A stretch of DNA of 64,000 nt from Branchiostoma floridae (taxonomy: Eukaryota > Chordata > Leptocardii > Amphioxiformes > Branchiostomatidae): contig NC_049992.1 in assembly GCF_000003815.2 (NCBI RefSeq), positions 4,212,998 through 4,276,997 of the forward strand. The letters are read 5' to 3'. The notes beneath the pieces were generated by a model. It made no database searches. It was given only the letters and a program-made list of their open reading frames with translations, and was not told where the DNA came from. This document shows positions 1 to 59,676 of this stretch, in pieces (position 1 is the stretch's first letter; each line of letters begins with the position of its first letter). A program made the translations under genes and the position numbers.

Positions 1-82
1 GATGGATGGATGGATGGATGGATGGATGAGTGGGTGGGTGGATGGATGGATGGATGGATGGATGGATGGATGGATGGATGGA
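1..82. repeat. (ATGG)n microsatellite
   Basis: The window opens with about 80 bp of near-perfect GATG/ATGG tetranucleotide repeat, broken by a short GAGTGGGTGG variant. It lies in the intron just downstream, on the minus strand, of the last visible EGF exon of gene A. The repeat is open in one plus frame only because of its simple period. Confidence 0.95.
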
Positions 83-3000
83 CAGAATTAGTAACTCACC
101 TTGCTGACAGTTCTGTCCAGTCCATCCGTGTGAGCAGGTACATTCGTATCCATCATTTTGGTTCAAACAGCGCCCATGTTGGCAGGGCTTCCTGGCACAT
201 GCATATACCTGTATCTCTGTGTGAATTAAATCCAGGTAACCATATAAATAGATATGATATTTTCCTGCATACCTAGCTTTAACAGATGTTAGCATTGCTT
301 TGTAGTGTATAATGTCTATCATCTTAACTTTTCGGGTAGGCAACCGCATGTCATAATTTTTTCCAACAAAACATCTCTAAAACGCAAGGCAATTCTGCAA
401 AGCTACACCAGAAATTCTACATTTTGTGACTACATTGCGTAAAACAACTCACTTCTCTGACAGTTCTGTCCAGTCCATCCAGGTGAGCAGGCACATGTGT
501 ATCCTTTAGCTTGGTTCACACAGCGCCCGCCATGTTGGCACGGGTTTCTGCCATATTCATCTTTGTGTGAAGATGACAATTTGAAAGTCTGTTGAAGGTG
601 GAGCTACACCAACTGGGTTTTACGGTCATACTTTGAACACCCAGAGACTAATTCAAGCATGCATCCAAGGAACATTGAAAAAACAAAAAACACTTAAGAT
701 GGCATAAGGTCTTGCTCAGAACAATTGCCTTTCATTAAGTGTAAACAGAAGTCCAAGAGTTGAAGAATCTATTTATTTTGACTTGGAAATCAGGGAAGAT
801 TTACTGCCTATGGTATCTACACCACAAACGTTAACATAGACTCACCTGTAATCTGGTAGACCTCATTGGCATCAGGCCCGCCTTCGCCGTCCTCTTTACA
901 GGCTGTGGAAGGCCCGTACTTCTTGTAGGTGTTGATCCCATCAGCGGATCCAAAACACTGTCCGCCATGCTGTACAGCAAACATGGTAAAACCACGAGAA
1001 ACTGCAACCTGGTAACACTTGTCTATGGCGTTGGCACGTCTTGTGTAGCGGCCATCTAGTCGTGGATCTGAATTCTCGAGTAGCGACATGGCCCGAGATC
1101 TCCACACGTCTTTCCAGCACCCTAGGTTGATGTACCCACAACTCCCCTTCTCCTTCGCTGTACGAGGAAGAAGATTTTACCGTAAGACTCAAGCACAACG
1201 GGCCCTCTTTCATTATTCTGTTTCGTGTAGATTGTCTTGCTTCTAAGGACGGTGTAAGAAGAAACACATTTTTGAGCTATGTAGGTCTACAACTGTGAAT
1301 GATATAAGAAGAAGTGACTTATTTCGAAGTGAGTTGACTTACTCTATTCCAATCAAGGTTACAATCACAGTAGACAACTAGGCAACTCACCTTGCTGACA
1401 GTTCTGTCCAGTCCATCCAGGTGAGCAGATACATTTGTACCCTCCGTTGTTGTTCTCACAGGTCCCATGCCGGCAAAGGTTCTTCATTGCGCACTCGTCA
1501 ATATCTGTGCCACAACAACAACAACAACAACAGCAACATTTATCATAGTCTTGTCAATTCAAGGAATAAATATTGAATGCCAAAATGTATGGGAACAAAA
1601 AAGTGTGAGAAGGGAACTCACCTTGCTGGCAGTTCCGTCCAGTCCATCCGGGTGAGCAGGTGCATTTGTAACCGCCATCTTTGTTCACACAGCGTCCATG
1701 TTGGCATGGATTCCCGGTGCACTCATTGATGTCTGATAAAAAAGTTGTTTAAGAAAAACCAAGATTGACTTTACTTGATTCTTCCAAAAACGCAAACAAT
1801 AAAAGTCAAGTAGCATTTATGCAAAATGAATAGAAGCCAGAGAAAAGTTACTCACCTTGCTGACAGTTCTGTCCAATCCATCCTGGTGAGCAGGTACATT
1901 TGTAGCCTCCGTTGTTGTTTTCACAGGACCCATGCTGGCAGATGTTCCTCATGGCACACTCGTTAATATCTGTGTAGTAAATAACAGCAACATTAGTCAT
2001 AGTATTGTCAATTCAAGGACTTAATGTTGAAGGCTGAAAAAGTATGGGAATAGGACATTGTAAACTGAAACTCACCCTGCTGACAGTTCTGTCCAGTCCA
2101 TCCTGGTGAGCAGGTACATTTGAATCCTCCATTTTTGTTCACACAGGTCCCATGCTGGCAAAGGTTCTTCGTTGCGCACTCGTCAATATCTGTGCAATAT
2201 ATATAACAGCAGCATTTATCATAGTCTTGTCAATTCAAGGAATTAATATTGAATGCCAAAAATGTATGGGAACAAAAAAGTGTGAGAAGGGAACTCACCT
2301 TGCTGACAGTTTTGACCAGTCCATCCAGGCGAGCAGGTACATTTGTACCCTCCATTGTTGTTCCTACAGGACCCATGCTGGCAGATGTTCCTCATGGCAC
2401 ACTCGTTAATATCTGTGTAGTAAATAACAGCAACATTAGTCATAGTATTGTCAATTCAAGGACTTAATGTTGAAGGCTGAAAAAGTATGGGAACAGAACA
2501 TTGTAAACTGAAACTCACCCTGCTGACAGTTCTGTCCAGTCCATCCAGGTGAGCAGGTACATTTGTAGCCGCCATCTTTGTTCTCACAGCGTCCATGTTG
2601 GCATGGGTTCCCTGCACACTCGTTAATATCTGTGTGATGCATAAGAGAAAATAAGACAAAACGACATAAGCAGATGGTTTTTGCAGGGAATTGATACGTA
2701 TTATGGTTTATAACAGTTACGTTTATCAATATTAAAATAGCCAAATGTGTACGAATAAAATAGTCTGGTAGGAAAAGTACCTTGCTGACAGTTCTGTCCA
2801 GTCCATCCAGGTGGGCAGGTACATTTGTATCCTCCATTTTTGTTCTCACAGGTCCCATGCCGGCAAAGGTTCTTCATTGCACACTCGTCAATATCTGTGC
2901 CACAACAATAACAGCAGCATTTATCATAGTCTTGTCAATTCAAGGAATTGACATTGAATGCCAAAAATGTATGGGAACAAAAAAGTGTGCGAAGGGAACT

Positions 3001-6000
3001 CACCTCGCTGGCAGTTCCGTCCAGTCCATCCTGGTGAGCAGGCACATTTGTAGCCACCATCTTTGTTCACACAGCTTCCATGTTGGCATGGGTTCCTGGT
3101 ACACTCATTGATGTCTGTGTGATTGAGATAGAAGGAAATGTAACGTTTCAGTTGAATTTTGTAGCTGACTGACTGGAAACTAGTAGATGGAAAATATCTC
3201 ACCTCTGTGACAGTTCCTTCCTGTCCATTCATGTGAGCAGGCACAATTGTATCATCCATTGTAGTCTTCACGAGTCCCATGCTGGCAGAAGTTTCTCATT
3301 GTGTTGTAAATAACAGTACCATTAACGATAGAATTATCAACACAGGGCTAGTACCTTGATGCTAAGATTCTCAATACTCAAAGTTTGTAGCAGCAAAATG
3401 TGCAAAAAATAACTCACCTTGGTTACAGTTCTGTCCAGTCCATCCAGGTGAGCAGGTACATTTGTAGCTGCCAGCTTTGTTCACACAGCGTCCATGTTGG
3501 CATGGGTTCCTGGTACACTCATTGATGTCTTTAGGAGAAGGAAAGAAATATTATTCATAAATCTAAGCCCATTATCTTTATGAAGATAAGCCATGAAAGT
3601 ACACACAGACACACAGACTAAGGACCCACCTTGCTGACAGTTCTGTCCAGTCCATCCTGGTGAGCAGGTACATTTGTAGCCACCATCTTCGTTCACACAG
3701 CGTCCATGTTGGCATGGTTTCTCCACACACTCGTCAATATCTGTAATGAAAAATTGTGTAACTATGAGAGTAGTAGCTGAAATTTAGACGGTAGATGTTG
3801 AATGTATAGCAAGGAATTAAAAAAGTCTGTAATTAGAACTCACCTTGCTGACAGTTCTGTCCAGTCCATCCAGGTGAGCAGGTACATTTGGAGCCACCAT
3901 CTTTGTTCACACAGCGTCCATGTTGGCATGGGTTCTTGGTGCACTCATTGATGTCTTTAGGATAAAGAAAGAAATACTATTCATCAATCTAAAGCCCATT
4001 ATTTTTCTGAAGATAAGCCATGAAAGTACACACAGACACACAGACTAAGTATCCACCTTGCTGACAGTTCTGTCCAGTCCATCCAGGTGAGCAGGTACAT
4101 TTGTAGTCGCCATCTTTGTTCACACAGTGTCCATGTTGGCATGGGTTCCTGGTGCACTCATTGATGTCTGTGGGACAACAGATAGAAATGAGATAACTGT
4201 AGTTAGATGAAATATACCTACAATGGCACAATGTTGGGCACTCAACCTAGATCAAAGTTGATGAGAAATTCACTTCTGGAAGCATTTAATTGGCGTGTGG
4301 TCTTACCTTCTGTTGACAGAGACATGCCAGTCGTTAGTTGGATTCCGGGGTGTGAGCTGACATCTGTAACCGCCTTAGTTGACCCACCTTTTGAAGGGAA
4401 AAACGTCAGTGGAGTCGAAAAGGTCACAGTCGTGATGTTTTCTTTAACCAGCTCTAAAGTTGAAGAGAAAAGGACTCATGAATAAAGAACATTTTGCAGA
4501 AGGCGGCCAAAATTTCCTCATCAAATGCATTAAACACCTCTGCCTTGAACACAGCAATAAAAGAATCTCACCTTTTGGACTGTTCTGTTCAAGTCATTCA
4601 GCTGAGCAGGTGCATTTGCTAGCTACCAACACTGATTAATTTCCATGTAACCCTTTAAAGTTGTTGAATACCTAACCAAAACTCACCTTGCTGAAAGCTC
4701 TATCCAGTCGAGGGGTATGTTGGATAAGGAAAACTCTGATGAGCAAATGCAAACTTAGGAAATCTGCTTGTGGTCTTACCCGTCGTTGATAGAAGCGTGG
4801 CTGGTGAGGTATCGTTTTTAACTGTGGTGTTCGCGTACGGTTCAGTTGATTCCAAAGGCAGTGTGGTCACAAAGACGTCAATTGAGATGTTAGCCTCGTA
4901 GACTGCCGTCCATGAAGTACCAGACTTTGATGCAAAATCAGATGCAGGTGGAGTCGGATAGCTGATGTCCGAGCTGTTTTTGTTGTGAAACGTCGCCCCC
5001 CATGGATTGCGAGAATTGCCTATCTTCTCGCCGGTCACCAAACCACCCTACAAAGAGGTCCATAACTTGAAGCCTAGAATTTTAAAGTGCTAAAGCCTTG
5101 CTTGTCTCGAACGTAGCTAGTTATACAATTAAAAGATATGATGGTGAACATGAAAACAAGTCTGATGTTTTCAAGACTCTTGACAAACATAGAGAACTTA
5201 ATATTCATGTTTAAAAAAATAATTTCGTGTATAGCGCATCCTCGCATTCAATGAAAGGTGGGTAAAGATGAAACGTTACCTACCTTTACGTTTGTCCCTA
5301 GAAAGAGACCGCCAGGTACCAAACCTTCGGCGATGAACAGAAGCCCCGCCACCAGCACTGCGCAGCCGATCATAACCCTCCAAGCACTGCTAGATTTCAT
5401 CTTATTCCACAGTTCTACGGCATGACCTGAGATTCATGATTCATGAAAGTAAATTAGAATAGCAAAAAACGTTGCTGTTATATCACTATTTCTTACTTGC
5501 TACAATGAGCATAACGCTAACCGCTGGGTATGATAGCCATGTGGTTAGGATTAATGGCCTTCAATTAACCTTGACCTTTGTCTTGCCAAGACCTATCCAC
5601 TTACCAAATATCATAAAGATCCATCCAAATGTTCTTAAGTAACTACGTTATGCTGGCCACAAATACTTTTAGTACCCGGAAACACAAACATGCTCACAAG
5701 CAATCACACAGGCGGACGAAAACCAATATCTTCATTTTCATTGGTGTTGCCTAATCCAAAGTTTGTCAAGCCCTAGTTTTAGTTCTATTCGATCGTGACG
5801 TACCTCTAACTTTGTGGCAAAAGCCAGGTGCATCAGTATCTCCATCTCCGCTGGTTTCTGCTGATGTGTAGGTTGTATCGGTGCACGACTCTTCAGTGTG
5901 CTCTGGATTTACCATCACGTGGTCTCCCATGTCGAGACGGTGCGCAGCACTTCGCGACCCAGATCTCAAGACACTTTCATCACGAGGATCCACGTCTTTG

Positions 6001-6368
6001 AGCTTTCCTGCTGGCAACGTTTGCGGGACATTTCTGCCATCCGTGTCTGTGTCATCCTGTTTCTTTGGCCCAGAACTAGAAGCGAAGACACTGTAACCAT
6101 GCGGATCCACGTCTTCATACTTCCTGCTGACTTCTTCATTCCTTCCGTATACCTCTTCTTTCTTTTTGTCCTCCTTGTCAACACGGCGAGGGTTTCTTGC
6201 CGGCAAAGGCGGTGGCTCGTTTCCACCATCCAAAGCTTCATCGGACGGTTTCTGTAATCCAGGACCCAATGCAAAGATGCCATAACCATGCGGATCTACG
6301 TCTTCATACTTTCTGTGTGATTCTTCATTCCCCGAATCTTCAGCTTGTTTCTTCTCTTTGTCTCCCAT
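1..6368 (-). CDS. Gene A: type II membrane receptor with tyrosine/SH3-motif tail, stalk, EGF array and GCWKD module (3' partial)
   Basis: This is a multi-exon minus-strand gene that runs off the left edge. Visible coding exons in transcript order are 6368-5804 (cytoplasmic tail), 5414-5284 (transmembrane), 5047-4780 and 4453-4307 (stalk), twelve EGF exons from 4167 to 1391, 1157-846 (GCWKD module), 560-453 and 216-100 (EGF). Donor and acceptor phases agree throughout: phase 1 everywhere except phase 0 between the transmembrane and first stalk exons. There is no signal peptide, one membrane segment and an acidic N-terminal tail, so I infer N-in/C-out (type II) topology with the EGF modules outside. 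The layout matches gene B at 33558-41693, including a shared stalk end, HPGI..TT...SLST. Function is not known; a cell-surface recognition receptor with a signalling tail is an inference. It resembles Notch only in the EGF repeats. Confidence 0.85.
100..216 (-). CDS. Gene A EGF exon (most 3' visible)
   Basis: A phase 1-1 exon of 117 nt encoding one EGF module. On the minus strand it starts after an acceptor ending CACAG and stops before a GTGAG donor. The usual DINEC start is replaced by a longer EIQVYAC, with all six cysteines kept (ACARKPC...RC..Y.C.C...C). It is the last exon of gene A inside the window; the gene must continue beyond position 1. Confidence 0.8.
453..560 (-). CDS. Gene A EGF exon lacking its first cysteine
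   Basis: A phase 1-1 exon of 108 nt. The acceptor ends ACAAAG and the donor is A|GTGAGT. The encoded module begins [14 protein letters not shown] where neighbours read [15 protein letters not shown]. The first of the six EGF cysteines is therefore missing and an extra Gly sits in the second loop. The rest ([20 protein letters not shown]) is normal. It lies between the GCWKD module and the last EGF exon. The splice sites and reading frame are intact, so it is probably translated. Confidence 0.75.
846..1157 (-). CDS. Gene A exon encoding a GCWKD-type Cys-rich module
   Basis: A single 312-nt phase 1-1 exon encoding about 104 residues. Landmarks in order are [64 protein letters not shown] and [12 protein letters not shown]. 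From memory, modules of this type are common in secreted and membrane proteins of amphioxus and cnidarians. They resemble WSC-type carbohydrate-binding domains in having GC near the start, an AI..C helix and a GG.C turn, but I cannot assign the family with certainty. Gene B has no equivalent exon. The acceptor reads GTACAG and the donor ACAG|GTGAGT. The reading frame is intact. Confidence 0.8.
1391..4167 (-). CDS. Gene A array of twelve single-exon EGF modules
   Basis: Twelve phase 1-1 exons of 111 or 114 nt, each one EGF module. Plus-strand coordinates are 4057-4167, 3844-3954, 3630-3740, 3418-3528, 3004-3114, 2781-2894, 2519-2629, 2299-2412, 2076-2189, 1856-1969, 1622-1732 and 1391-1504. 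The typical start is [15 protein letters not shown] and the typical end [12 protein letters not shown]. The D-I/N-E-C start plus Asn and an aromatic in the GGYKC turn fits calcium-binding EGF. The 114-nt exons form a subclass with an extra residue ([16 protein letters not shown]). Most donors are GTGAG; variants are GTAC (after 2781), GTGGG (3630) and GTGGA (4057). Introns are also near-repeats, so whole exon-intron units have duplicated. A decayed unit sits at 3203-3305. Confidence 0.9.
3203..3305 (-). pseudogene. Decayed EGF exon inside the gene A array
   Basis: The minus strand still reads like an EGF exon (NFCQHGT, then [14 protein letters not shown], and a CACAGAG|GTGAGA donor). The expected third cysteine codon is CGT, an in-frame TGA replaces the Gly before the conserved Tyr, and the DINEC start with its acceptor is gone. 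Inclusion would truncate the receptor, so it is a relic that must be skipped. Confidence 0.8.
4307..4453 (-). CDS. Gene A second stalk exon
   Basis: A 147-nt phase 1-1 exon between the first stalk exon and the EGF array. It encodes a Ser/Thr-rich linker with one N-glycosylation sequon (ENITT) and the segment [18 protein letters not shown]. The same segment ends the stalk of gene B ([18 protein letters not shown]), which shows the two genes are paralogues outside the EGF modules too. The donor is GAAG|GTAAG and the acceptor CTTTAG. Confidence 0.8.
4568..4712 (-). pseudogene. Two degraded EGF exon fragments
   Basis: On the minus strand, 4568-4650 keeps the spacing of an EGF exon 3' half but with many substitutions. 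4682-4712 keeps only the last EGF codons plus a CAAG|GTGAG-like donor. Neither has an acceptor or a full cysteine set. They look like dead units left at the N-terminal edge of the array. Confidence 0.6.
4780..5047 (-). CDS. Gene A first stalk exon (extracellular)
   Basis: A 268-nt exon, entered in phase 0 (TTTGTAG|GGT) and left in phase 1 (ACGG|GTAAG). It encodes about 89 residues rich in Ser, Thr and Pro with several NxS/T sequons (NSS, NIS, NTT, NDT). It sits immediately outside the membrane segment. Composition suggests a glycosylated stalk. The corresponding exon of gene B is 1030 nt long, so the stalks differ about threefold in length. Confidence 0.8.
5284..5414 (-). CDS. Gene A transmembrane exon
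   Basis: A 131-nt exon, phase 1 in and phase 0 out (AAG|GTAGGT). It encodes [20 protein letters not shown] followed by [16 protein letters not shown]. There is one hydrophobic span of about 20 residues preceded by Lys/Arg and followed by a short extracellular linker. The positive side is N-terminal, which supports N-in topology. The exon aligns in position, phase and length with the transmembrane exon of gene B at 33982-34115. Confidence 0.85.
5804..6368 (-). CDS. Gene A cytoplasmic tail exon with YEDVDPHGY and PPPLPARNP motifs
   Basis: The first coding exon encodes 188 residues plus one base (AGAG|GTACGT, phase 1). I chose the ATG at 6368 (context CAACATGGG) because no ATG lies upstream in frame. 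Two tyrosine modules are intact: [13 protein letters not shown] near residue 20 and [13 protein letters not shown] near 83. A third, [12 protein letters not shown] near 123, has lost its Tyr. PPPLPARNP near residue 52 fits a class II SH3 ligand; its second copy reads PQTLPAGK and has lost the Arg. A LDMGDH...[11 protein letters not shown] segment follows, as in the other tail copies. High Asp, Glu and Lys content suggests an unstructured signalling tail. Phosphorylation is inferred. Confidence 0.8.
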
Positions 6369-14180: not shown

Positions 14181-14190
14181 TTACAGAAAA

Positions 14191-14976
14191 ATGGAGGTAC
14201 GTGGTGCAAGACTGTCCGCCAAAAAACAGCATGTTCATAAAGGCGTGGATGATGGAGATGTTCCGCCGCCATTGCCGCCAAAACCTCATCAACCACCAAA
14301 AAAGTACGAAGACGTGGATCCTCATGGTGAGAGTATCCTTGCATTGAGTTCTGGGCCTAAACAAAAGCGTGATAAAAGAGTAGACGATAGAAATGTCCCG
14401 CCGCCATTGCCGGCCAGAAATCTACCGCCAAGCACGTACGAAGACGTGGATCCTCATGGTGACAGTATCCTTGCATTGAGTTCCGGGCCTAAACAAAATG
14501 GTGATAAAAGAGTAGACGGTAGAAATGTCCCGCCACCATTGCCGGCCAGAAACCTACCGCCAAACACGTACGAAGACGTGGATCCAAATGGTGACAGTGT
14601 CATTGTGTTGGGTTCTGGGCTACAACGCGCTGTACCTAAAGAGCCCCTACCTCGAAAACGTACAGAAACGGACAAAGAAAATGAACTCTCGAAAGGAAGA
14701 AATGAAGAAGAAGCCAACAGAAAGTATGAAGACGTGGATCCCGTTGGTTACGGTATCTTAGAAGAGTCCAAACAGGCGTGCCGAAAGAACGAAGGGTTGG
14801 ATCTAGGGTCCAGCGGTGTAAATGTGATATTAAACTCTGGTTTGAAACGCGCATTACCCGACTTACCCCCTCCTCGCAAACTCGGAAAAGGAGACGACGT
14901 GGCGGTGTGTCCAATGCAAAATGATGAATCGTGCTCGGATCCGTTCAACAAACCAGGGAACAGCGCTGGACATTAA
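14191..14976 (+). CDS. Orphan tail copy 1: four YEDVDP modules, premature stop before the splice donor
   Basis: An open frame of 261 residues, preceded by an acceptor (TTACAG|AAAAATGG) that implies an upstream non-coding exon. Tyrosine modules start at about residues 39 ([12 protein letters not shown]), 83 ([12 protein letters not shown]), 127 (YEDVDPNGDSVI) and 179 (YEDVDPVGYGIL). Proline modules are PPPLPPKPHQPP at 25 and [11 protein letters not shown] at 70 and 114. The end, GLKRALPDLPPPRKL then SCSDPFNKPGN, matches the 46000 copy. That copy continues in phase 1 into GTATGTCC. Here the same donor is kept at 14983, but a TAA at 14974-14976 stands where the other has GAA. No transmembrane or EGF exon follows. 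It is either a recently broken receptor or a gene for a soluble adaptor-like tail. Confidence 0.75.
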   Translation: MEVRGARLSAKKQHVHKGVDDGDVPPPLPPKPHQPPKKYEDVDPHGESILALSSGPKQKRDKRVDDRNVPPPLPARNLPPSTYEDVDPHGDSILALSSGPKQNGDKRVDGRNVPPPLPARNLPPNTYEDVDPNGDSVIVLGSGLQRAVPKEPLPRKRTETDKENELSKGRNEEEANRKYEDVDPVGYGILEESKQACRKNEGLDLGSSGVNVILNSGLKRALPDLPPPRKLGKGDDVAVCPMQNDESCSDPFNKPGNSAGH

Positions 14977-15834
14977 ACGGAAGGTATGTCCATTATTGTG
15001 CAACACATCTACCCACATTCTTTACATTTTAAGCGTAAAACGTTACAATACATGTACAATATCATTCCGTCACCACTCATGTAATGCAATGCCTGTCTTA
15101 ACTTCATAATTATACAGCTATACTTCCTTCTTTTTGGTTACAAGTTTTTTGTCATTTATCTGATGAGTATGGCCGCAGTACTTACGTAACAAAACAGAAA
15201 CAAGTATAGTGCATTAATGGCTTATCCCTTACAGTAAGATATATATTGTGTAACCCGAGTTTTCATGACTTGATGTGTATCAATAGATAGCATACGATTT
15301 AAAGCATAGCTGTATTTAACAGAGAGCTTGGAGCATGTCCATACAATATATTATTTTAGTTAAATATGCCATAAATGATATAAAGTCCTTGTGAAATTAT
15401 AATTTGGTTGGTATGCTATCATATCATCAGCTCAAGCTATGGGTGGGCGTTCATTTTGCATATGGCCTTATTCAAAATTAGTCTGGTCTACGTCCTGTTT
15501 ACGCTTGGGGCTTTTACATAACAACCCCAGTTATTGTGAGTTATCAGCACCTAAGCTGGAAATACCCCCATAGAAACCGTCTGCTTAACTTTTCTTTTCA
15601 TTTCATAATAGCTCATACCTATAGCCTACAAAGGTTGTTAAATCGAAAGGTTCTGGGTTCGATTCCTTTAATAATATGTTTATTGCAAATTCTTGCCCGA
15701 GAGCTAATTGTAGGTACAAGCAACATGTAAAATAAGGAAAATACAAAGGTGCTAGGAACTACATTCTATGACTATGCTGTGCTACTGAAGTGTACATTAT
15801 ACTGGTTTTGTTGGGTTTGACTTCTTCTTTTTAG
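14977..15834. other. No gene seen
   Basis: AT-rich sequence following the tail copy. A GTATGTCC donor at about 14983 is retained, but no partner exon is visible. A tRNA-like B-box word (GGTTCTGGGTTCGATTCC near 15649) occurs without an accompanying tRNA fold. Confidence 0.4.
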
Positions 15835-28318: not shown

Positions 28319-29075
28319 CAGGCAAGACCGTAGATTTTTAAGTATATCAACTTGTACATAAGTGTTCTAACCAAACGGTTTCCAGGGCCTATACAGCCTG
28401 ACTCCTTGGCTCTAGGACCAACATCCCCCAATGAAATTCTACAGCAGCACCCCCCTCCCTCAAGTTATAGGCTCGTTCTCATTTAGATGTAAAAAATGCT
28501 GTCGCCTGCCTTTGCAACTAATATGCAGCAATATAAGATATTTCAGACAAAATCACTGGTTCCTTCGTTTTTCCACAATTCCTGTAATGTTTTACAGAAG
28601 ATACACCACAACATTTATATTGGTTGATGGCTTGGAAGATTAAATTCACTAAGACTAAGTTAAATTCACCTGTCCTGTCTTTTGCACACAAAAAATCAGT
28701 TTGTTTTCATTTCCCCTAGTGTTTTTCCTTTATTTTCCCATGTCTATTTGTACTGGTCACCTGTATTGTAATTTACCCATGCGTAGTCTGCCAATAATCT
28801 CAAAAATTGAGGCTAGGCAGTACGAAAGAAGAAGAAGATGATTATCATGGCCACGGGTGGGATTTCACCCCCTAAAAGTTGGCTGTTGCGGCGGCAGTCT
28901 GTCGCATGAGAAGACACGAAGAATTCAAAACCTTAGTAATTCGGAGAATTCAAATTCACCCATTTCAAAGATTGCGTCAAATTTAAACAAAAAAAAAAAC
29001 TTTTTTTGTTTTTCAGTTATTTTGTAGGCTATATCCTCGACTTCAACATATTAGTTTGTCGCACTTCAGACGTGC
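28319..29075. other. No gene seen
   Basis: Upstream of the zinc-finger frame; some of it may be an intron of that gene. There is a CCCCTAAAAGTTGGCTGTTG stretch at about 28870, and A-rich and T-rich runs at about 28985-29010. No coding sequence is supported. Confidence 0.4.
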
Positions 29076-33557: not shown

Positions 33558-33764
33558 GGTCCGACGGTGAAAGGGTGAAAGTTAATCCTAACTTGAAACG
33601 TCCTTTACCCGATGTACCTCCTTCCCGGAAACTCGACATGGGAGACCACACTGTGGTGTATCCAGAACAGACGGACGAATCTTTCTCAGATCCGTACTAC
33701 AAACCGGGGGACACTGACAGGGATGAAGAGCAACACAAAGCGAAGAAAAGCTTCTGTCCCAAAG
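33558..33764 (+). CDS. Gene B cytoplasmic tail exon (membrane-proximal part)
   Basis: A 207-nt phase 1-1 exon: acceptor GGAATAG|GG, donor AAAG|GTATAC. It encodes [20 protein letters not shown], then [20 protein letters not shown] and a basic end. This is the membrane-proximal part of the tails at 14191, 46000 and 57954. No YEDVDP module lies in this exon, but VVYPEQ and DPYYKP supply other tyrosines. Confidence 0.8.
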
Positions 33765-36700
33765 GTATACGCCGTGCAATTAAAAAAAAGTAGTTGGAAC
33801 TGTTTCAATAGCTGAAAATGCTCCTGGGATACTTGCCCGATGCTACAACTTTTTTAACTTCTAGGGATACCCCTGGTGTGTAAGGGTCCATATATTCTAA
33901 TAGTTCTAAGACTGATCATTTTCTGATTTTTAGAATCTTCTGTCAAGGCTTTATGCTTTATGTTTTTACATTAAACTTCAGAGTGTGTGATGAAAATGTG
34001 GAGGATGACAAAATCCAGTAAAGTTTGCTGGGTACTTCTTGGATTCGGAATCCTGGTGATTGCAGCAGCTGTCATCGGAGTGGTCCTGTCAGTTTTCATC
34101 CCACCTGGAAGTAAGGTAAGCCCACCAGTTGATTTTGTTGAATAGAAACCATTGTCCATAGGGCCATGTTCACTTAATATATCCTTACGTCTCGGTGCTT
34201 CCTAGAAATTCCAGGACACCCCACGGATATTGAAGATTCCTTTTTAGCAGTTCCCTCTTTGCCCCGTCCCTCTTCTCCTCTTGCACAAGTGGTGCCCAAA
34301 TTGTCCAAAATAGCAAATTGCTGCGGTTCTGTCTACAATAACTCATCACATATTTGCAGGAGGCGCAATACTCTACAAATCAACAGGTAACGGTGATCCA
34401 GGCGAAGTTAACAAATGCCAGCGTTTCAAGGTCATCGATTTTCTTCGAGGACAACAGCTCAGCCCTTGTTAACATGACTCTACTCTCCCCGACATCGATG
34501 GCCCAGACGCCTGCCACTCCAAGGGCGACGACTGTCTACAGGAAAAGCAGCTCAGATCTTGTCAACTCGACTCCTTTCTCCCTACACCCGATGTTAAAGA
34601 AGTCTGATTCTACACAAATGACTGCACTCAATGAGGAAAACAGCCCGTTCCTTGTCAACACAACCCAGTTCTCGTCACCAATGATGATGAATATGACTGT
34701 GCGTCCTGGGGAGACAAATGTCGTCATGGAAAACAGCTCGGCTCTTATCAACACGACTCCATTCCCTTCCCAATCGATGCAAAAGATCACTACTACTTCA
34801 AAGATGACAACTTTCTTCAAGGAAAGTGGGTCGGCTCTTATCAACGCGACTGATTTCTTCAAGAACAACAGCTCAGCCCTTGTGAACATGACTTCATTCT
34901 CTACATCATCGATGCTGCGCAAGTCAGCTACTCCAAGGATAAGGGCGTTCTCCAAGGAAAACAAAACCACATCGATGCTAATGAAGTCTGCCACTCCAAG
35001 GGCGATGACAATCCTTAAAGAAAACAGGTCGGCCCTTGCCAACATGACTCCATCCTTCTCACCAGTGATGCTGAAGACGTTGGCTACCCCACGGGTGAGC
35101 AGTTCTTTCAAGGACGAAAACTCTACCCTTATCATGGCGACTCCTGTCTTCAAGACAAACTCGGGCTCGGGCGCTGTCGTTGTGAACATCACTTCATTGT
35201 CCTCGACATCGATGCTATGGACGTCTACTACAACACGGGTGACAAAGTTCTTCAAAGATAAGCGTGCTACTGTTTCCTTGTCGACTTCCCTCGTCTTGCC
35301 CTCGGCAGGGGAGTCAACTGGGGCATTTTCGAACGTCAGCTTACACCCCGGAATCCATCCAACGACCGTCAAGTCTCTGTCAACTGCTGGTAAGTAATGT
35401 ACTCAAAGTCTGGTGAAGACTAGACTACTTTATGTGTTTAAGCTCTGTTCTATGTTAAAAACGTCACGCATTAACTTTCATACCATACCAGTTTAATAGT
35501 TTGGTTCTTGCTCCAACAAAATTTGTTGTCATTATCCCACAGACATCAATGAGTGCACCAGGAACCCATGCCTACATGGACGCTGTGTGAACAAACATGT
35601 TGGCTACACATGTACCTGCTCACATGGATGGACTGGACACCGCTGTCAGCAAGGTGAGATTTTTCGTCCTGTTACATATATATCAAGAGCATCGATAAAG
35701 GTTAGGCATCAAGGTTATGAGATGCTCAATCAAAAAATATTAAAGATATTGTCTAAGTTTGTTAACAAACGGTCAGACGTTTCTAATTCAGACAGTAAGT
35801 ACCAGTTAGTAAGGTAAATTCTTTTTACAAAAGCATCTACATCATAATGGGTTCTGTCTTATATCACAGATATTGTGTTTCGGTGTTTCTTATACGTAAC
35901 TAATGCACCTCTCATCGACACTGACTGAAATGATTGATATTATCCCACAGACATCAATGAGTGTACCAGGAACCCATGCCAACATGGACGCTGTGTGAAC
36001 AAAGATGGCGGCTACAAATGTACCTGCCCACTAGGATGGACTGGACAGAACTGCCAGCAAAGACAAGGTGAGTTGTTTTCACAACGGCTTTTGTATGTTC
36101 TGTGTTGGTCAAATTAAAAAAGAATGACATCTTTACATGCATTTCTTATTGACACAAACATGAAATGCACCGTGTACAATATTTGGACCTAGAAGCTCCA
36201 CCTCCAACAAAAATGTGTCAGCTTACACACTGGAATCCATCCAACGACCGTCAAGTCTCTGTCAACTGCTGGTAAGTAATGTACTCAAAGTCTGGTGAAG
36301 ACTAGACTACTTCATGTGTTTAAGCTCTGTTCTATGTTAAAAACGTCACGCGTTAACTTTCATACCATACCAGGTTAATAGTTTGGTTCTTGCTCCAACT
36401 CATACAAAATTTGTTGTCATTATCCCACAGACATCAATGAGTGCACCAGGAACCCATGCAAACATGGACGCTGTGTGAACAAACATGTTGGCTACACATG
36501 TACCTGCTCACATGGATGGACTGGATACCGCTGTCAGCAAGGTGAGATTTTTTTTCAATTTATTCTGTAAGACATTCTTTGATTTTCCGGATGGTCATTG
36601 GATGTTTGAACCTCAATTTATGTGCTTTTGCACGTTAACGGTATCCAAGTCATCATCCTTTAACTACTGCTTCCATCACCTTAAAGGTTTGTGTCCTTCA

Positions 36701-39700
36701 TTTCAAAGATATAGATGAATGCAGCCAAAAACCTTGCCAACTTGGACGCTGCGAAAACAACAATGGCGGCTACACATGTACCTGCTCACCTGGATGGACT
36801 GGACAGAACTGCCAGAAAGGTATGATAACCTCTTAATGTGCAGTTAGAGACATTTCAATTCTACTGTGACAGATTCATTCTTTTATTTTGACCTTTAAGT
36901 GTGTTTTCGTACCATTGAGCTAGTATTTGAAAACTATCATTTTAACATATTTAGCTTCACATACAGTTTTTTTTTTCAAATCCTACAGACATAGACGAGT
37001 GTGCTGAAAAGCCTTGTCTATATGGACATTGTGCCAATCAGGATGGCGACTATCAATGCACCTGCTCACCTGGATGGACTGGTCAGAACTGTCGGCAAGG
37101 TGAGTTCCTTCGTAATTCGTCCTGTTACATATATAGCAATTGCAAGAGCATCGATGAAGGTTAGGCATCAAGGTTATGAGATACTCAAAGAAATATTGAA
37201 GATATTGTCTAAGTTTGTTAACGAATGGTCAGACGTTTCTAATTAAGACATAGTAAGGTAAATTCTTTTCACAAAAGCATCTACATCATAATGGATTCTG
37301 TCTTATATGGTAGGTTTTGCATGTCTTATATTTCTTAGATTTTTTTCATTAAACTTGGTATGTATAAAGCGCATTATGCAGACCATTTAGACCTAAAACT
37401 TCACGTCCTACATTAATTTGTTTCCAATATCCCATAGACATCAATGAGTGTGCCAGGAACCCATGCCAAAATGGACGCTGTGTGAACAAAGTTCCTGGAT
37501 ACAGATGTGCCTGCTCACATGGATGGACTGGACAGAATTGTGAGCAAGGTGAGTACTTTTCACAAAAATAAAAATGTTTCCATTTTTTATAGCATGTCTG
37601 TGTTTCTTATATGTTCTTGTGTTTATCATACATAACTGGTGCACCTCTCATCGACACTGACTGAAATGATTGATATTATCCCACAGACATCAATGAGTGC
37701 ACAAGGAACCCATGCCTACATGGACGCTGTGTGAACAAAGATGGCGGCTACAAATGTACCTGCTCACCTGGATGGACTGGGCAGAACTGTCAGCAAGGTG
37801 AGTTGTTATTCACAACGGGGTTTGCATGTTCTGTTTTGGTCCAATTAAAAAAGAATGACATCTGTACATGCATTCCTTATTGGCACAAACATGAAGTGCA
37901 CCGTGTAGAATATTTGGACCTAGAAGCTCCACCTCCAACAAAAATGTGTTACCCCACAGACATTAATGAGTGTACAATGAACCCATGTCAACATGGACGC
38001 TGCGTGAACATACCTGGCGGCTACAAATGTACCTGCTCACCTGGATGGACTGGACAGAACTGTCAGCAAGGTGATATTTTAGTAAAAACATCCATATTAG
38101 ATTAGCTATCTTTCTTTCTAGCGGGTATTGCATATTCTGATATCTTTACATGTATCTCTCGTTGACACAGACTTAGCCAAAAAGCTAAAACTCCACCTCA
38201 TACAGAAATTGTTAACATTATCTCACAGATATCAATGAGTGTATCAGGAACCCATGCCAACATGGACGCTGTGTGAACACAGGAGGTGGATACACATGTA
38301 CCTGCTCACTTGGATGGACTGGACAGAACTGTCAACAAGGTGAGTTTTTCTTACAACGGGTTTTGCGTGTTCTTATTTGTTAAATTAACAAAAAGTCTTT
38401 TATATCTTTACATGCTTAGCATCAAGTGCATCATGTAGAATATGAGAATTTTGATGAGAATTTTGGACATGAAACTCCTACAAAAAAGGTGAGTTTTTTT
38501 CACACCGGGTTTTGCATGTTCTGTTTTGGTCAAATTAAAAAACATCTATGATATCTTTACATGCATTTCTCATTCTCATCAAACTTAGCAAGAAGTACGT
38601 CGTGTAGAATTTATGGACCTAAAGCTCCACCTCCTACAAAAATGTGTTATTACACCACAGACGTCAATGAGTGCACCAGGAACCCATGCCTACATGGACG
38701 CTGTGTGAACATAGATGGCGCCTACAAATGTACCTGCTCACCTGGATGGACTGGACAGAACTGTCAGAAAGGTGAGTACTTTTCATAGAAATAAATATGG
38801 TTCTATTTTGTTTTATAGCAGGTCTGTGTTTCTTATATTTCTTGAACTAGTGCACCTCTCATTGACACTGACTAAAATTATTGCTATTATCCCACAGACA
38901 TTAATGAGTGCACCAGGAACCCATGCCAACATGGACGCTGTGTGAACAACGATGGTGGATACAGATGTACCTGCTCACCTGGATGGACTGGACAGAACTG
39001 TCAGCAAGGTGAGTTCTTTTCACAAAAATATACAAATAGAAATGAGTCTGTTTGATGTTATTTTATTTTATAGCAGGTCCTGTATGTTGTATGTTCCCTG
39101 TGTATTCTTAAACTAGTGCAACTATCATCGGCACTGACTGAAATGAAGTGCATCATGGAGAATATTTAGCGCTAAAGCTCCACCTTCTACAACAATTTGT
39201 TATTTATCCCACAGACATCAATGAGTGTACCAGGAACCCGTGCCAACACGGGCACTGTGTGAACAAAGATGGTGGCTACAAATGTACCTGCTCACCTGGA
39301 TGGACTGGAAAGAACTGCCAGCAAGGTGAGTTTTTTTTCACACTTTAGCAAAAAAAAAAAATATCTTTACGAGCATTTCTCATTGACACAAACGTGCTTT
39401 ATTGGGTGGAGAGGACAGAAATGTGATCAGGGTGAGATTTTCTTGACATTTTTTTCTGTTTTGGCATATCAATCCGCACATGGTTCTGGTCAGATATTGC
39501 TATATTTTGGCAAAATAAAAAGGTGTAACAATTCAATTAGGTAACACCTCTAAATTATACAATCTACATTTTGTTGAATATGAAGTGTGTGCCATACATT
39601 TTATCACTGTGACAGTACATAATTGTTGAGCAAGAACGTTATCAGCCTTGTGCTGCCATAGTGATATAGGAGGCATTCCTTGCTGAAAGTTTGTGAGAGA

Positions 39701-41693
39701 CCATGTCTGCTAGGAAAAGCTAAGTCAGTAAATGTGGGCAGAAAGAAAAAAGTGTACGAAGGCTAACCAAATAAGGCTAAAACAAAGCGACCAGTTTGCC
39801 GAAGAAAGAAACAACAACATCAAATAATTCATTGGCTTTCCGCGGATGAGGTTGTACATAAAAAAATTGTTGTCAGTGTTTCCGTGAACCAAATGGCATA
39901 CACTGCATGTAAAGAATGCTTAAGGGCGAAAACATATCAAGCCATACGTTATATAATTGTAGAGTGGACAAATTAAGAAGTAATGTACTAGCAATACAGC
40001 CGGTGAGGCTATGGGACAGGCGAGGTGTTTGCTCACTAAGACCTCACTTCATTTACTGTCTTGTTGCAGTCAAACCATGCCAGTATGGATGGAATGAACA
40101 CAACAACCACTGTTACAAGTTGATGAGAGACAAAGTCAGCTGGGAGTTTGCACAGCACAAGTGCAAAGAATATGGTGCACATCTGGCCTCTATCACAAGC
40201 AAGGAGGAGGACGACTTCATTAAACGTTTCATTTCGAATGGTGGGTTGTGAACAGATTATTGTCAATTATGACAGCGTTTCTTTATCATTCGTACTTAGT
40301 CCAGGGAGGAAGAAAGAGAGGGTAGGCAACATGTTAACAGTAACGATGGGATAGGCATGGCATGTGAAACAGTAAGGACAGGAAACCAAGGAAGGTGAGC
40401 AGATCCTCTGCGCTGCCCCAACGCTCAAGTAGCTAAATAAAGGGAAAGCTGAGAAAGAGATGTGAGATATTCAACAGATTTAATTGATAGGAATTAATTG
40501 TTGTACCATTTACCATACGCTGTATCGCGATTGTGACAGGAAACCAAGGAAGGTGAGCAGATCCTCTGCGCTGCCAAAACGCTCAAGTAGCTGAATAAAG
40601 GGAAAGCTGAGAAAGAGATGTGAGATATTCAACAGATTTAATTGATAGGAATTAATTGTTGTACAATTTACCATGCGCTGTATCGCGATTGTGACAGGAA
40701 ACCAAGGAAGGTGAGCAGATCCTCTGCGCTGCCCAAACGCTCAAGTAGCTAAATAAAGGGAAAGCTGAGAAAGAGATGTGAGATATTCAACAGATTTAAT
40801 TGATAGGAATTAATTGTTGTACCATTTACCATACGCTGTATCGCGATTGTGACAGGAAACCAAGGAAGGTGAGCAGATCCTCTGCGCTGCCCAAACGCTC
40901 AAGTAGCTGAATAAAGGGAAAGCTGAGAAAGAGATGTGAGATATTCAACAGATTTAATTGATAGGAATTAATTGTTGTACAATTTACCATACGCTGTATC
41001 GCGATTGTGACAGGAAACCAAGGAAGGTGAGCAGATCCTCTGCGCTGCCCAAACGCTCAAGTAGCTGAATAAAGGGAAAGCTGAGAAAGAGATGTGAGAT
41101 ATTCAACAGATTTAATTGATAGGAATTAACAGTTGTACAATTTACCATACGTTGTATCGCGATTGTTGAACAGAATGGTACTCTAAGTGATACCAGTCAT
41201 AGACAAATTCTGTGCATTTCCTTCTTTACAGCCCCTGATAAAGGTGTCTGGATTGGACTTCGAAGATATGGGGCATCTTGGAAGTGGAATGACGGATCAC
41301 GATTCAGCTATAAGAATTGGGACCATGGTGAGCCTAACAACCAATTCTGGAACGGTGGAGAGGAATGTGTGAACATATGGTCTAAGGTGAGTGCTTCCTT
41401 CTATCATAAAAAAAGTCATAATATCTCTGAATTTCTTTCTATCACAGAACAGTGATATTATCTCTGAATATTAGTAGAGCATTTGATTAATTTGCTTTTG
41501 CATGGGAAACTGTAACTTGAACACAAATTGTGTTGAGGATTCGTACTGGAAAAAGTAACAATGTTTCGTATTTATGTAACATTTCCCACAGACCGGCAAC
41601 AACTGGGCAAACACCGTGAGATGGACATACGGAAGATGGAATGACAGCAGCTGCGGCTTTAAACATAATTACATTTGCGAGAAGTTGAAATAG
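33558..41693 (+). CDS. Gene B: type II EGF / C-type lectin membrane receptor (5' end not found)
   Basis: Exons with consistent phases are 33558-33764 (tail end), 33982-34115 (transmembrane), 34360-35389 (stalk), twelve EGF exons from 35543 to 39325, and the lectin exons 40070-40240, 41232-41386 and 41592-41693, ending in TAG. All junctions are phase 1 except phase 0 after the transmembrane exon and before the last lectin exon. With no signal peptide and one membrane span near the N-terminus, the lectin head is C-terminal and outside, as in type II C-type lectin receptors. The lectin motifs predict calcium-dependent mannose-type sugar binding. The repertoire-like paralogy with gene A suggests innate recognition, which is inference. 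The exon carrying the start codon and any YEDVDP motif is not visible upstream. Confidence 0.87.
33982..34115 (+). CDS. Gene B transmembrane exon
   Basis: A 134-nt exon, phase 1 in and phase 0 out (AAG|GTAAGC). It encodes [20 protein letters not shown], then [20 protein letters not shown]. There is a single span of about 23 hydrophobic residues with basic residues on the N-terminal side. Position, phase and size match gene A 5284-5414. Confidence 0.9.
34360..35389 (+). CDS. Gene B mucin-like repetitive stalk exon
   Basis: A 1030-nt exon (TTTGCAG|GAG to GCTG|GTAAGT) of about 343 residues. It is built from eight or nine degenerate units of about 30-40 residues with the pattern [11 protein letters not shown]-rich, SM.KSATPR, then T.F.KE. 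Ser and Thr dominate, and more than ten N-glycosylation sequons are visible (NSS, NMT, NST, NTT, NAT, NIT, NVS). It ends [18 protein letters not shown], shared with gene A. The likely role is a long glycosylated spacer holding the EGF and lectin modules away from the membrane. The opposite strand is open for 278 codons, a by-product of composition. Confidence 0.85.
35543..39325 (+). CDS. Gene B array of twelve single-exon EGF modules
   Basis: Phase 1-1 exons at 35543-35653, 35951-36067, 36431-36541, 36709-36819, 36989-37099, 37438-37548, 37687-37797, 37960-38070, 38229-38339, 38661-38771, 38898-39008 and 39215-39325. All are 111 nt except the second (117 nt, ending QQRQG). The typical module is [15 protein letters not shown]...[19 protein letters not shown], of the calcium-binding EGF type. 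Two modules (35543 and 36431) share a variant [16 protein letters not shown]. Introns repeat too (CACTGACTGAAATGATTGAT before 35951 and 37687), so exon-intron units duplicated together. Donors are mostly GTGAG; 36819 uses GTATGA and 38070 GTGATA. Confidence 0.92.
36217..36271 (+). pseudogene. Duplicated end of the stalk exon, out of phase
   Basis: The last about 50 bp of the stalk exon and its downstream intron (35337-35550) recur at 36217-36440. The copy keeps the GCTG|GTAAGT donor. Its only nearby acceptor (GTGTCAG|C) would enter one base out of phase with the phase-1 EGF exons, so normal splicing should skip it. Confidence 0.75.
39395..39431 (+). pseudogene. Relic of an EGF exon 3' end
   Basis: CTTTATTGGGTGGAGAGGAC followed by AGAAATGTGATCAGGGTGAG encodes an [11 protein letters not shown] ending next to a donor-like GTGAG. 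No cysteine-rich start or acceptor precedes it. Confidence 0.5.
40070..40240 (+). CDS. Gene B C-type lectin domain, exon 1 of 3
   Basis: Acceptor TTGTTGCAG|TC, donor AATG|GTGGG, phase 1-1, 171 nt. It encodes [17 protein letters not shown], then [20 protein letters not shown]. This is the N-terminal hairpin with its extra cysteine pair (long-form domain), the first helix and the GAHLASI strand of a C-type lectin fold. The frame past 40240 runs into a stop, which confirms the splice. Confidence 0.92.
40241..41231. repeat. Lectin intron filled with five tandem units of about 158 bp
   Basis: Between lectin exons 1 and 2, roughly 40377-41165 consists of five near-identical units. Each contains GGAAACCAAGGAAGGTGAGC, CGCTCAAGTAGCT, AAGCTGAGAAAGAGATGTGA and ACGCTGTATCGCGATTG. 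Copies start about every 157-158 bp. Differences between copies are few, so the array is young. Each unit holds an AAG|GTGAGC word that matches a splice donor. Confidence 0.93.
41232..41386 (+). CDS. Gene B C-type lectin domain, exon 2 of 3
   Basis: A 155-nt exon, phase 1 in and phase 0 out (AAG|GTGAGT). It encodes the WIGL core strand (KGVWIGLRR), [20 protein letters not shown] and [10 protein letters not shown]. The EPN tripeptide is the classic calcium-site motif for mannose/GlcNAc-type ligands, and the Cys in EECV pairs within the fold. Confidence 0.93.
41592..41693 (+). CDS. Gene B C-type lectin domain, exon 3 of 3 and stop
   Basis: Acceptor TTTCCCACAG|ACC, phase 0. It encodes [20 protein letters not shown], then [13 protein letters not shown] and TAG at 41691-41693. 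The WND motif supplies the second half of the calcium and sugar site. [10 protein letters not shown] is the canonical C-terminal strand of the fold, so the domain is complete. Confidence 0.93.
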   Translation, partial: TGNNWANTVRWTYGRWNDSSCGFKHNYICEKLK

Positions 41694-45848: not shown

Positions 45849-45999
45849 GAACCCGGCTCTGCTCGTGCACAGTTCTTATTCTCTCTTTTATTAAATATCA
45901 CATTCTCACAACAATCCCCGAATATGTGACTTGTTCCGAAAGTGATTCGTGCTTTTGATGAGAAATATGATGATGATGATGATGTCATATTGCAGAAGA

Positions 46000-46840
46000 A
46001 TGGAGGAACGTGGTGCAAGACTGTCCCCAAAGGAACAGCATGATGATAATAAAGGTGTGGATAACGGACATGTTGCGCCGCCGCTGCCGCCAAAAAATAA
46101 TCCACCACCAAAAAAGTATGAGGACGTGGATCCTCATGGTGAGAGCATCTTTGCATTGAGTACTGGGCTAAAACAACAGGGTGATAAACATGCAGACAGT
46201 AGAAATGACCCACCGCCATTGCCGGCCAGAAACCCGCCACTGTTATCATCAAACACGTACGAGGACGTGGATCCACATGGTGACAGTATCATTGTGTTGG
46301 GTTCTGGGCTACAACGCGCTGTACCAAATGAGCCCCTACCTCGCCACCATACAGAAATGGAGGTACAAGGAGACAAAGAATATGAACTCTCGAAAGGAAG
46401 GAATAAAAACCCCAACAGAAAGTATGAAGATGTGGATCCCCATGGTTACGGTATATTTGCATTGCCAAAGAAACAGTCCGGTGAAGATGTTGATGGAAAA
46501 ATCGTTCTGCCGCCTTTGCCAGCAAGGAACCCTCTCCGTCTTGACAAGGAAGACAAAGAGATAGAAGACGTTGACAGAAGGAATGAAGAAGTCAACAGAA
46601 AGTATGAAGACGTGGATCCGGCTGGTTATGGTATCTTTGATGAATCCAAACAGGCGTGCCGAAAGAAAGAAGGTATAAATGTGATATTAAACTCTGGTTT
46701 GAAACGCGCAGTGCCCGACCTACCCCCTCCTCGCAAACTCGACATGGGAGACCACACGGTGGTGTGTCCAGAACAGATGGACGATTCGTGCTCAGATCCT
46801 TACTGCTCACCTGGGAACAAAGTTGAACATGAAGATACAG
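46000..46840 (+). CDS. Orphan tail copy 2: intact four-module YEDVDP/PPLPAR tail exon
   Basis: The exon starts after TATTGCAG|AAGAATGG, so a 5' UTR exon is implied. It encodes 280 codons plus one base (GATACAG|GTATGT), phase 1, exactly the phase that transmembrane exons of this family accept. Tyrosine modules lie at about residues 40 ([12 protein letters not shown]), 87 ([12 protein letters not shown]), 142 ([12 protein letters not shown]) and 202 (YEDVDPAGYGIF). Proline modules are APPLPPKNN at 26, [10 protein letters not shown] at 71 and LPPLPARNP at 170. The membrane-proximal segment is [20 protein letters not shown], as in gene B. No transmembrane, stalk or EGF exon follows: 530 bp downstream a 10-kb foldback element begins. 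Either the body was lost or displaced, or read-through of the donor gives a soluble 289-residue protein ending at 46869. Confidence 0.78.
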
Positions 46841-48423: not shown

Positions 48424-48490
48424 TGGTTCCCACGCCGGGAATCGAACCCGGGCCTTGGCGGTGAGAGCGCCAAATCCTAACCACTAGACC
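48424..48490 (-). other. Primer-binding region complementary to 67 nt of tRNA-Glu(CTC)
   Basis: One base after the LTR, TGGTTCCCACGCCGGGAATC begins the complement of a tRNA 3' end (CCA, T arm GGTTCGATTCC). It does not stop after about 18 nt. It runs on through the anticodon arm (TGGCG-CTCTCAC-CGCCA, anticodon CTC) and the D arm (GGTCTAGTGGTTAGGA). The 5' acceptor strand does not pair, so this is not a functional tRNA gene. Confidence 0.85.
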
Positions 48491-48589
48491 TCTCCCACCC
48501 AGGACGACCCGGATTACAATCCGCGGAATGACCGGCCCCGTCGGCCTGCCCGCCCTAACCGTAACCGGCGCCGAGAACCTTCCCTTTCA

Positions 48590-54626: not shown

Positions 54627-54654
54627 GGGTGTTGATGGAAGATAGACCTAAGTC

Positions 54655-55902: not shown

Positions 55903-56094
55903 AAGACGGGCACAAAGTCTTCCAAAGATTGAAAGAAAGTAATTCCAAGGCAGCGACGAAAGTCAGCACACACTTATGTATCACTACTAACTCAAAAAGA
56001 ACGGTTAGCACCGCTCGAGAGCTTCCAGAACGCGAATTCTGGAGAGCTCACACAAAACACGTCAGATGACAACACCTGACCTTTGACACATCGT

Positions 56095-57953: not shown

Positions 57954-58195
57954 TTAAAGACCGAAGCTTTTCTCGTCTTGGTTTTCATCTTTAGGCGTCT
58001 TCGCCGGGTTGGAGTACGGATCTGAGGAAGGTTCTTCCTCCTGTTCTGGGTACTCCACGGTGTGGTCTCCCATGTCCAGTTTGCGAGGAGGGGGCACATC
58101 GGGTACCGGACGTTTCAGACCAGTGTGTAATATCGCATCGACACCACCAGACTCTAGGTCCACATCTTCATACTTTCGGCCCGCCTCTTCTGACC
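57954..58195 (-). CDS. Orphan tail copy 3, single YEDVD module, ends in a stop
   Basis: A minus-strand exon-like frame after acceptor ACGGTAG|GG. It encodes GSEEAGRKYEDVDLESGGVD, then AILHTGLKRPVPDVPPPRKL and DMGDHTVEYPEQEEEPSSDP, and closes EKSFGL-stop. The gene B exon at 33558 ends EKSFCPKG-type sequence at a GTATAC donor. Here the donor is gone and a TAA follows directly. The GYGIF part of the module is absent. It is probably a broken tail exon, though a short cytosolic protein is possible. No further exon lies downstream on the minus strand. Confidence 0.6.
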
Positions 58196-58437: not shown

Positions 58438-58525
58438 ACGTTTCCAGCCGGTGTTCAGTATTACATCTACACCACCCGACCCTAGATCCACATCCTTGCA
58501 CTTTTGGACCGCTTCTTGGAGCGAA
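58438..58525 (-). pseudogene. Decayed tail fragment with Tyr replaced by Cys
   Basis: The minus strand reads EAVQKCKDVDLGSGGVDVIL then NTGWKRARGT. The module Tyr-Glu is Cys-Lys, and the proline segment after KR is lost. There is no clear splice site. It is a second relic next to the 57954 copy. Confidence 0.65.
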
Positions 58526-59521: not shown

Positions 59522-59676
59522 GTGTTGACCTTATTAATATGTTCTGTCGAACATGTGTTTTTACATCAGATTTAGAAACATGAGATGTTTTCAAGGTTTT
59601 ATTGTAAGAAATGCAGATAGACCAAGTGGAAGATGAAATAGCATTGGCTCATGCCTTAACTCTACTATGTTTTCAG

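Follow-up and report, generated by a model that had tools for sequence, protein, structure and literature searches.

A stretch of 64,000 nucleotides of the Branchiostoma floridae genome (the window; C14:4212998-4276997 of the 513-Mb genome searched) carries an exon in which tyrosine and proline motifs recur in alternation, and the question that it raises is whether such repeats belong to the inner tail of a receptor, to what kind of receptor, and what a tail of this kind would do. An earlier note on this DNA had listed five copies of a module in which a YEDVDPHG(YGIF) block alternates with PPPLPAR. We found that three of them stand (5804-6368, 14191-14976 and 46000-46840), and that their listed coordinates agree to within a few bases with splice-bounded exons, 14976 being, in the long tail exon of gene B, the end of an in-frame TAA (14974-14976) immediately ahead of the donor at 14983 (Table 1). 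The other two (57954-58195 and 58438-58525) lack PPPLPAR and do not hold as copies of the whole module, and a related tail exon (33558-33764, + strand) was missing from that list. The repeat of the gene B long tail has a TRF period of 132 bp, and the coordinates of the gene A tail run from the MGDKEKK start codon, not from a mapped exon 5' end.

Table 1. Positions within the window of tail, transmembrane (TM) and ectodomain features; a slash marks the splice junction.
Feature	Position	Strand	Evidence and content
Gene A ectodomain, EGF-pattern exons beyond the left window edge	2..4246	-	EGF pattern; WSC-like domain among the exons
WSC-like domain within gene A ectodomain	820..1176	-	Pfam WSC E=1.6e-4, under the curated cut-off
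Gene A TM exon	5284..5426	-	Acceptor phase 1, donor phase 0
Gene A tail exon from MGDKEKK start	5804..6368	-	2 YEDVDPHG, 1 PPPLPARN; phase-1 donor AGAG/GTACGT
Gene B long tail exon	14187..14983	+	4 YEDVDP, 2 PPPLPARN; phase-1 donor GAAG/GTATGT
Gene B small symmetrical tail exon (phase 1-1)	33558..33764	+	Juxtamembrane block including SDPYYK, without YEDV; boundaries by eye
Gene B TM exon	33982..34115	+	TM-exon HMM
Gene B EGF exons (open-frame range)	35500..39345	+	Pfam on ORF 37674-38102: EGF_CA E=8e-15, EGF E=2e-15
Gene B C-type lectin domain, three exons (open-frame range)	39913..41690	+	Pfam Lectin_C E=2.8e-6 and 6.4e-7 on the first two
Focal long tail exon (tail C)	45996..46840	+	4 YEDVDP, 3 PxLPx[RK], 1 LPPPR; splice sites
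Orphan small tail exon (tail D)	57957..58195	-	1 YEDV, VPPPRK, no PPPLPAR
Decayed small tail exon copy, CKDVDLGSGGVDVILNTGWKRA	58438..58525	-	CKDV, no PPPLPAR

Gene A alone in the window has exons for the tail, the TM and the ectodomain with no visible break, its EGF exons being recognised by their pattern. In gene B, Lectin_C matches lie above the cut-off, and a C-type lectin domain (CTLD) is the last recognised domain, ending at about 41690; EPN is found in the second lectin exon and WND in the third (motifs and third exon read by eye). Between the long tail exon and the TM exon of gene B we also observe a C2H2-type zinc-finger frame of 516 residues (26819-28366, minus strand) with a repeat period of 84 bp, its fingers recognised by eye.

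The focal exon, tail C, holds 280 open codons between an acceptor (TTGCAG/AAGA-ATG) and a phase-1 donor (ACAG/GTATGT), and the position of the acceptor just before the ATG points to a 5'-UTR intron. Further along the + strand we found no TM or EGF exon before the window ends, and among the best candidates on C14 the nearest TM exon beyond it on that strand lies at 4372491, about 112 kb away (E 0.0045). The proposal that had singled out this exon (46000-46840) as a receptor tail needs amending on that account; to judge from its surroundings, it appears to be an orphan duplicated tail exon whose receptor has been lost. Tail D is an orphan fragment; its frame closes, and no donor was found ahead of the stop. 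According to the accessible part of one report, lancelet C-type lectin domain genes are over-represented among the genes that are present or absent between individuals (PMC12373286), and such variation would fit the broken and orphan tail copies.

Searching the genome with the focal tail returned at least 67 matches spread over 8 contigs. We group these into 27 tail loci (28 if the exons of gene B are counted apart), of which A, B, C and D lie in the window and 23 elsewhere (L009-L031), and the description of the receptors as a local family was thus too narrow. A divergent tail query adds one locus on C3 (L038) and further weak matches at C14:5305059 and C14:5901295. With an HMM built from 12 TM exons, we detected a homologous TM exon downstream of the tail and in its orientation at 21 of the 27 loci; the HMM finds none at tails C and D of the window or at L010, L011, L021 and L022, with the L021 TM exon visible by eye and L022 holding a run of N. 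Of the 27 loci, 21 also have EGF-pattern exons on the strand of the tail and 15 have a lectin exon there, with 10-kb stretches examined at L009-L031. Two lectin exons from other loci were scanned with Pfam, both falling under the Lectin_C cut-off, and EPN is present in 9 of 13 second lectin exons, as read by eye. Across the 23 loci L009-L031, the order of tail, TM, EGF and lectin exons has no exception, and no exon of these four kinds was found on the opposite strand. An open frame similar to the WSC-like domain of gene A was found nowhere in L009-L033.

The exon joints and the charges beside the membrane give the orientation of the protein. A phase-1 donor closes 22 of the 25 long tails (counted by hand; exceptions L011, L018 and L025), 20 of 22 TM exons have a phase-1 acceptor candidate (L018 has lost its AG and L016 lies beside a gap), and 20 of 22 have a phase-0 donor (exceptions L012 and L025, the latter cut by N). 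Within 15 residues of the TM, 19 of 22 exons have more lysine and arginine on the N side than on the C side, one has as many on either side and two have fewer (sums 64 vs 21), a count that includes L032, whose tail is not known, and L016; the tail N-termini are charged, as read by eye. Conserved phase-1 joining together with basic residues on the tail side argues for type II receptors with an N-terminal cytoplasmic tail. We show, from this gene structure, that the repeats form the predicted N-terminal cytoplasmic tail of a large lancelet type II receptor family, arranged as tail, TM, stalk, EGF array and C-type lectin domain. The suggestion of the earlier note that the tail is joined to EGF and lectin ectodomains is borne out by the shared order and the conserved splice phase with TM, EGF and C-type lectin exons, and its placement of the tail on the cytoplasmic side of a receptor stands with the amendment that, in a type II protein, the tail is N-terminal.

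We also observed variation in what stands ahead of the TM exon. At the C1 locus, one first tail exon is followed by five tandem small tail exons and then by TM and EGF exons, and splicing could retain or omit the small exons, which read as phase 1-1, with the frame intact. Among these five (C1:29258000-29275000; L024 and L033), one carries KYEVVD and one KYEDQD, and in a small tail exon of L023 (3161-3400 in transcript orientation) the tyrosine codon of YEDV reads TAG. When the TM exon of gene B is used as query, at least 58 TM-like exons emerge (E up to 0.1), many of them at sites without a tail match. Five such sites were read about 3 kb upstream: the one on C3 has a divergent YEDV-type tail, the C15 site and one on C14 carry other tyrosine motifs in short tails, and no tail was found over that distance at the C4 and C8 sites. 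In this shared TM exon family, DPHTYLEL is repeated in L037 and PTYLHV occurs in L036, in place of YEDV. Differing tails on related TM exons suggest that the YEDV/SH3 tail is one of several within a larger TM family.

The composition of the module was assessed in 25 long tails, a set that excludes L030 and tail D (small tail exon only) and in which L011 is truncated at a frame break. These tails contain 72 exact YEDV and 51 PxLPx[RK], against shuffle means of 0.14 and 0.60, respectively (300 shuffles), in a recount for which L017, L025 and L026 were trimmed and L018 still overruns its end; the excess above chance is likewise seen in a run of 500 shuffles with slightly different trimming. Single tails, which range from about 120 to 720 residues as trimmed, hold 1 to 6 YEDV and 0 to 7 PxLPx[RK]. 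Four of the 25 have a single YEDV and three (L009, L020 and L021) have no PxLPx[RK], so that the SH3 half of the module is not universal. The distance from YEDV to the next SH3-type site is 32 residues in 17 of 24 cases, and that from an SH3-type site to the next YEDV is 30-31 residues in 11 of 30 and 12-15 in 12 of 30; for these spacings, as for the residue counts over 83 units, the disorder scores and the ITAM, hemITAM and ITIM scans given below, L017, L018 and L025 overran their true ends and L026 began late. A third conserved block of the module, LPPPRK...DMGDH...SDPYY, adjoins the membrane. As regards the proposed YEDVDPHG(YGIF) block, the YEDV part holds whereas the YGIF part is variable, with a tyrosine at +8 of YEDV at 21 of 72 exact sites and in 23 of 83 units. 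Pfam returned nothing above cut-off on 11 tail sequences, its only match being a sub-threshold Ago_N_2 on L031, and the focal tail, compared with PDB sequences, had no match at E up to 1. The earlier assignments of the two motifs are upheld as pattern matches, PPPLPAR fitting the class II SH3 consensus and YEDV fitting an acidic SH2 site.

Vertebrate scaffolds and nephrin, itself a type I Ig protein, are the best-known cases of multivalent SH2/SH3 docking. YEDV with its near-fixed acidic residues fits the ADAP/nephrin class, and PPPLPAR is what we take to be a class II SH3 ligand; on this basis we favour, with moderate confidence, the reading of the repeats as a multivalent SH2/SH3-docking tail on a lectin receptor, which would most likely couple ligand binding to actin-linked uptake or adhesion. 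In such a scheme, the outer lectin/EGF part would bind ligand and the receptors would cluster, a Src-type tyrosine kinase would phosphorylate YEDV, and the phosphorylated site could draw adaptors whose SH2 domains accept Y-acidic-acidic-V, of the Nck, SLP-76 or PLC-gamma type, with the PPPLPAR sites drawing SH3 proteins, kinases among them. The tail, which with 1 to 6 tyrosine sites and up to seven SH3 sites may be seen as a nephrin-like multivalent scaffold, might then nucleate actin-linked clusters for the uptake or adhesion of glycan-bearing targets, e.g. microbes. Precedent comes from the accessible parts of two reports, in which the pYDDV of ADAP binds SLP-76, Nck1, Nck2, PLC-gamma, p85, CRK, Gads and RasGAP (PMC2908683) and the three phosphotyrosines of nephrin bind Nck and cluster with N-WASP by valency (PMC4238058). 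According to the same parts of these reports, nephrin and ADAP likewise have several Y-acidic-x-V sites in one cytoplasmic region (PMC4238058, PMC2908683), and the 72 YEDV of the 25 lancelet tails repeat Y-[DE]-x-V within one cytoplasmic region, as nephrin-like scaffolds do. The lancelet tails, where docking is predicted from the motifs, differ from nephrin in having SH3 ligands interleaved with tyrosine sites in cis. A docking tail of this kind would add a non-ITAM phosphotyrosine route to lectin receptors in lancelets, which are early-branching chordates.

More tentatively, these lancelet-expanded lectin receptors may have a signalling strength that is set by tail valency, through alternating pTyr-SH2 and SH3 modules, and the modules may, with the same reserve, have been multiplied by in-exon tandem repeats and, at C1, by the five phase 1-1 cassette exons. 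If so, paralogues or splice forms sharing an outer domain would have unequal numbers of docking sites and unequal thresholds for condensate-like clustering. With 1 to 6 tyrosine copies, the tails of this large invertebrate-chordate family offer a natural series for how docking-site number sets receptor clustering.

The main rival to the docking tail, which we regard as unlikely, is that YEDV and YGIF/YSVF are YxxPhi signals for clathrin adaptors and that the tail serves constitutive endocytosis in place of phosphotyrosine signalling. Endocytic lectin receptors are common, and YEDV, YGIF and YSVF each match YxxPhi. However, YxxPhi does not need the acidic pair between Y and V, which is near-fixed in the units (Glu at +1 in 82 of 83 and Asp at +2 in 76 of 83, residues that the search pattern itself favours and pre-selects), and the sites recur over hundreds of residues, with the second tyrosine in the minority.

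Rather improbable, in our judgement, is that the tail is a low-complexity charged and proline-rich linker with little signalling role, its motifs conserved through tandem duplication and gene conversion. The fixed spacings, which speak of repeat ancestry, agree with a linker, as does a disordered score in 24 of 25 tails (the exception is L018, which overruns its end), and the substitution rates over 10 paralogue pairs, each locus used once, bear on it from both sides. Under an exact-word mask, dN/dS is 0.55 in the spacer and 0.08 in YEDVD (ratio to spacer 0.00-0.37), and the synonymous sites of YEDVD have diverged like those of the spacer (pS 0.33 vs 0.27) whereas its pN is lower (0.034 vs 0.162), which argues against a linker; because this mask picks words that at least one sequence contains, it is biased towards conservation. 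Under looser masks YEDVD gives 0.19 when anchored on Y (ratio 0.09-1.05) and 0.38 when unanchored (ratio 0.33-1.29), both ratios to spacer including 1, and the constraint is then not significant, as a linker would have it. The SH3 sites give 0.32 (ratio 0.33-1.08), 0.40 (0.45-1.25) and 0.39 (0.44-1.04) under the exact-word, Y-anchored and unanchored masks, respectively, and their dN/dS is indistinguishable from the spacer under every mask over the 10 pairs, which again is in line with a linker. An earlier set of 13 pairs that reused loci gave 0.56 for spacer, 0.11 for YEDVD and 0.36 for PPxLPxR, and a 5-mer control over the 10 pairs ranked YEDVD 16th of 53 frequent 5-mers by pN, with the juxtamembrane LPPPR and PDLPP lower than YEDVD; in the 13-pair, unanchored-mask and 5-mer runs, the tails of L017, L018 and L025 were too long and that of L026 started late. 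On these substitution rates, YEDV is likely to be under constraint.

We consider it very unlikely that the tail acts through ITAM-like activating signalling via Syk. The pattern YEDV-x4-Y is indeed found at the 21 of 72 YEDV sites mentioned above, but this tyrosine spacing is too short, and the +8 position is Glu, Asp, Ser or Gly in 53 of 83 units. The ITAM pattern YxxL/I-x6-12-YxxL/I occurs in 0 of 25 tails, also when V is allowed, and a hemITAM-like pattern (an acidic run followed by YxxL), in the form used, likewise in 0 of 25; the ITIM pattern [SIVL]xYxx[LIV] is not a conserved motif of these tails, with only 6 matches among 235 tyrosines. On these counts membership in the ITAM, hemITAM and ITIM classes was rejected, and the resemblance to an ITAM that had been pointed out falls away with the second tyrosine, which is not conserved.

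When the lancelet family is set beside known receptors, we find for it a tail 5' of a single TM exon, positive charge on the N side and, in gene B, a C-terminal CTLD, as in type II C-type lectins. Dectin-1, CLEC-2 and DCIR are alike in having an N-terminal cytoplasmic tail, a single TM, a C-terminal CTLD and an inner tyrosine motif, as the accessible part of one source describes them (PMC11624271). They differ in that their motif is a hemITAM or ITIM and their outer part consists of a stalk and one CTLD, whereas in the lancelet family the tail carries recurring YEDV and SH3-ligand modules, and an EGF array separates TM from CTLD. Teneurins are also type II, with an N-terminal intracellular domain and EGF repeats, and end in a module of about 2000 residues, according to the accessible part of the source (PMC6428715), whereas the last recognised domain of gene B is a C-type lectin; Teneurin membership was rejected, given the CTLD end at about 41690 and an EGF_TEN profile match under the cut-off. 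The lancelet phagocytic receptor FrLRR acts in bacterial uptake via Grb2, an SH2/SH3 adaptor, but differs in its domains, which are of folate-receptor/LRR type with a predicted GPI anchor, and the accessible part of that report describes no such tail (PMC10199209). Tyrosine tails on type II lectin receptors have been described before, as have multivalent docking tails; the two in combination did not appear in the open-access searches, in which no paper turned up that contains the YEDV/SH3 motif strings, the SH3 peptide or the EGF-CLECT combination. The earlier note's word "undescribed" is supported to the extent of these open-access text searches.

A transposon-borne repeat unrelated to receptors, which the earlier note had named as the counter-case to its own proposal, could point to the LINE elements and satellites nearby, but we give it next to no weight, as no transposon domain was found in the 11 tail sequences scanned and the tails lie 5' of same-strand TM exons at 21 of 27 loci, a collinear architecture that contradicts such an origin.

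Several other features were observed in the window. On the minus strand, a LINE-type retrotransposon (50895-55962) has a 1251-residue ORF with endonuclease, RVT_1 and zf-RVT, preceded by a 435-residue ORF with a zinc-knuckle-like stretch recognised by eye, both frames being open. On the plus strand, an open frame of 489 residues (30416-31882) resembles, by eye, the reverse transcriptase of a second, different LINE. Two arrays of a 121-bp satellite (17919-19371 and 23049-24202) lie about 3.7 kb apart, and their consensus units are apparently reverse complements of each other. A single Rfam tRNA-like match on the minus strand (48434-48492) is possibly a tRNA-derived SINE. To the right of the receptor exons, the end of a gene of eIF4-gamma/eIF5 type occupies about 59600-62223 on the plus strand, with W2 at E=5.6e-19 on 62014-62223 and its start placed by eye.
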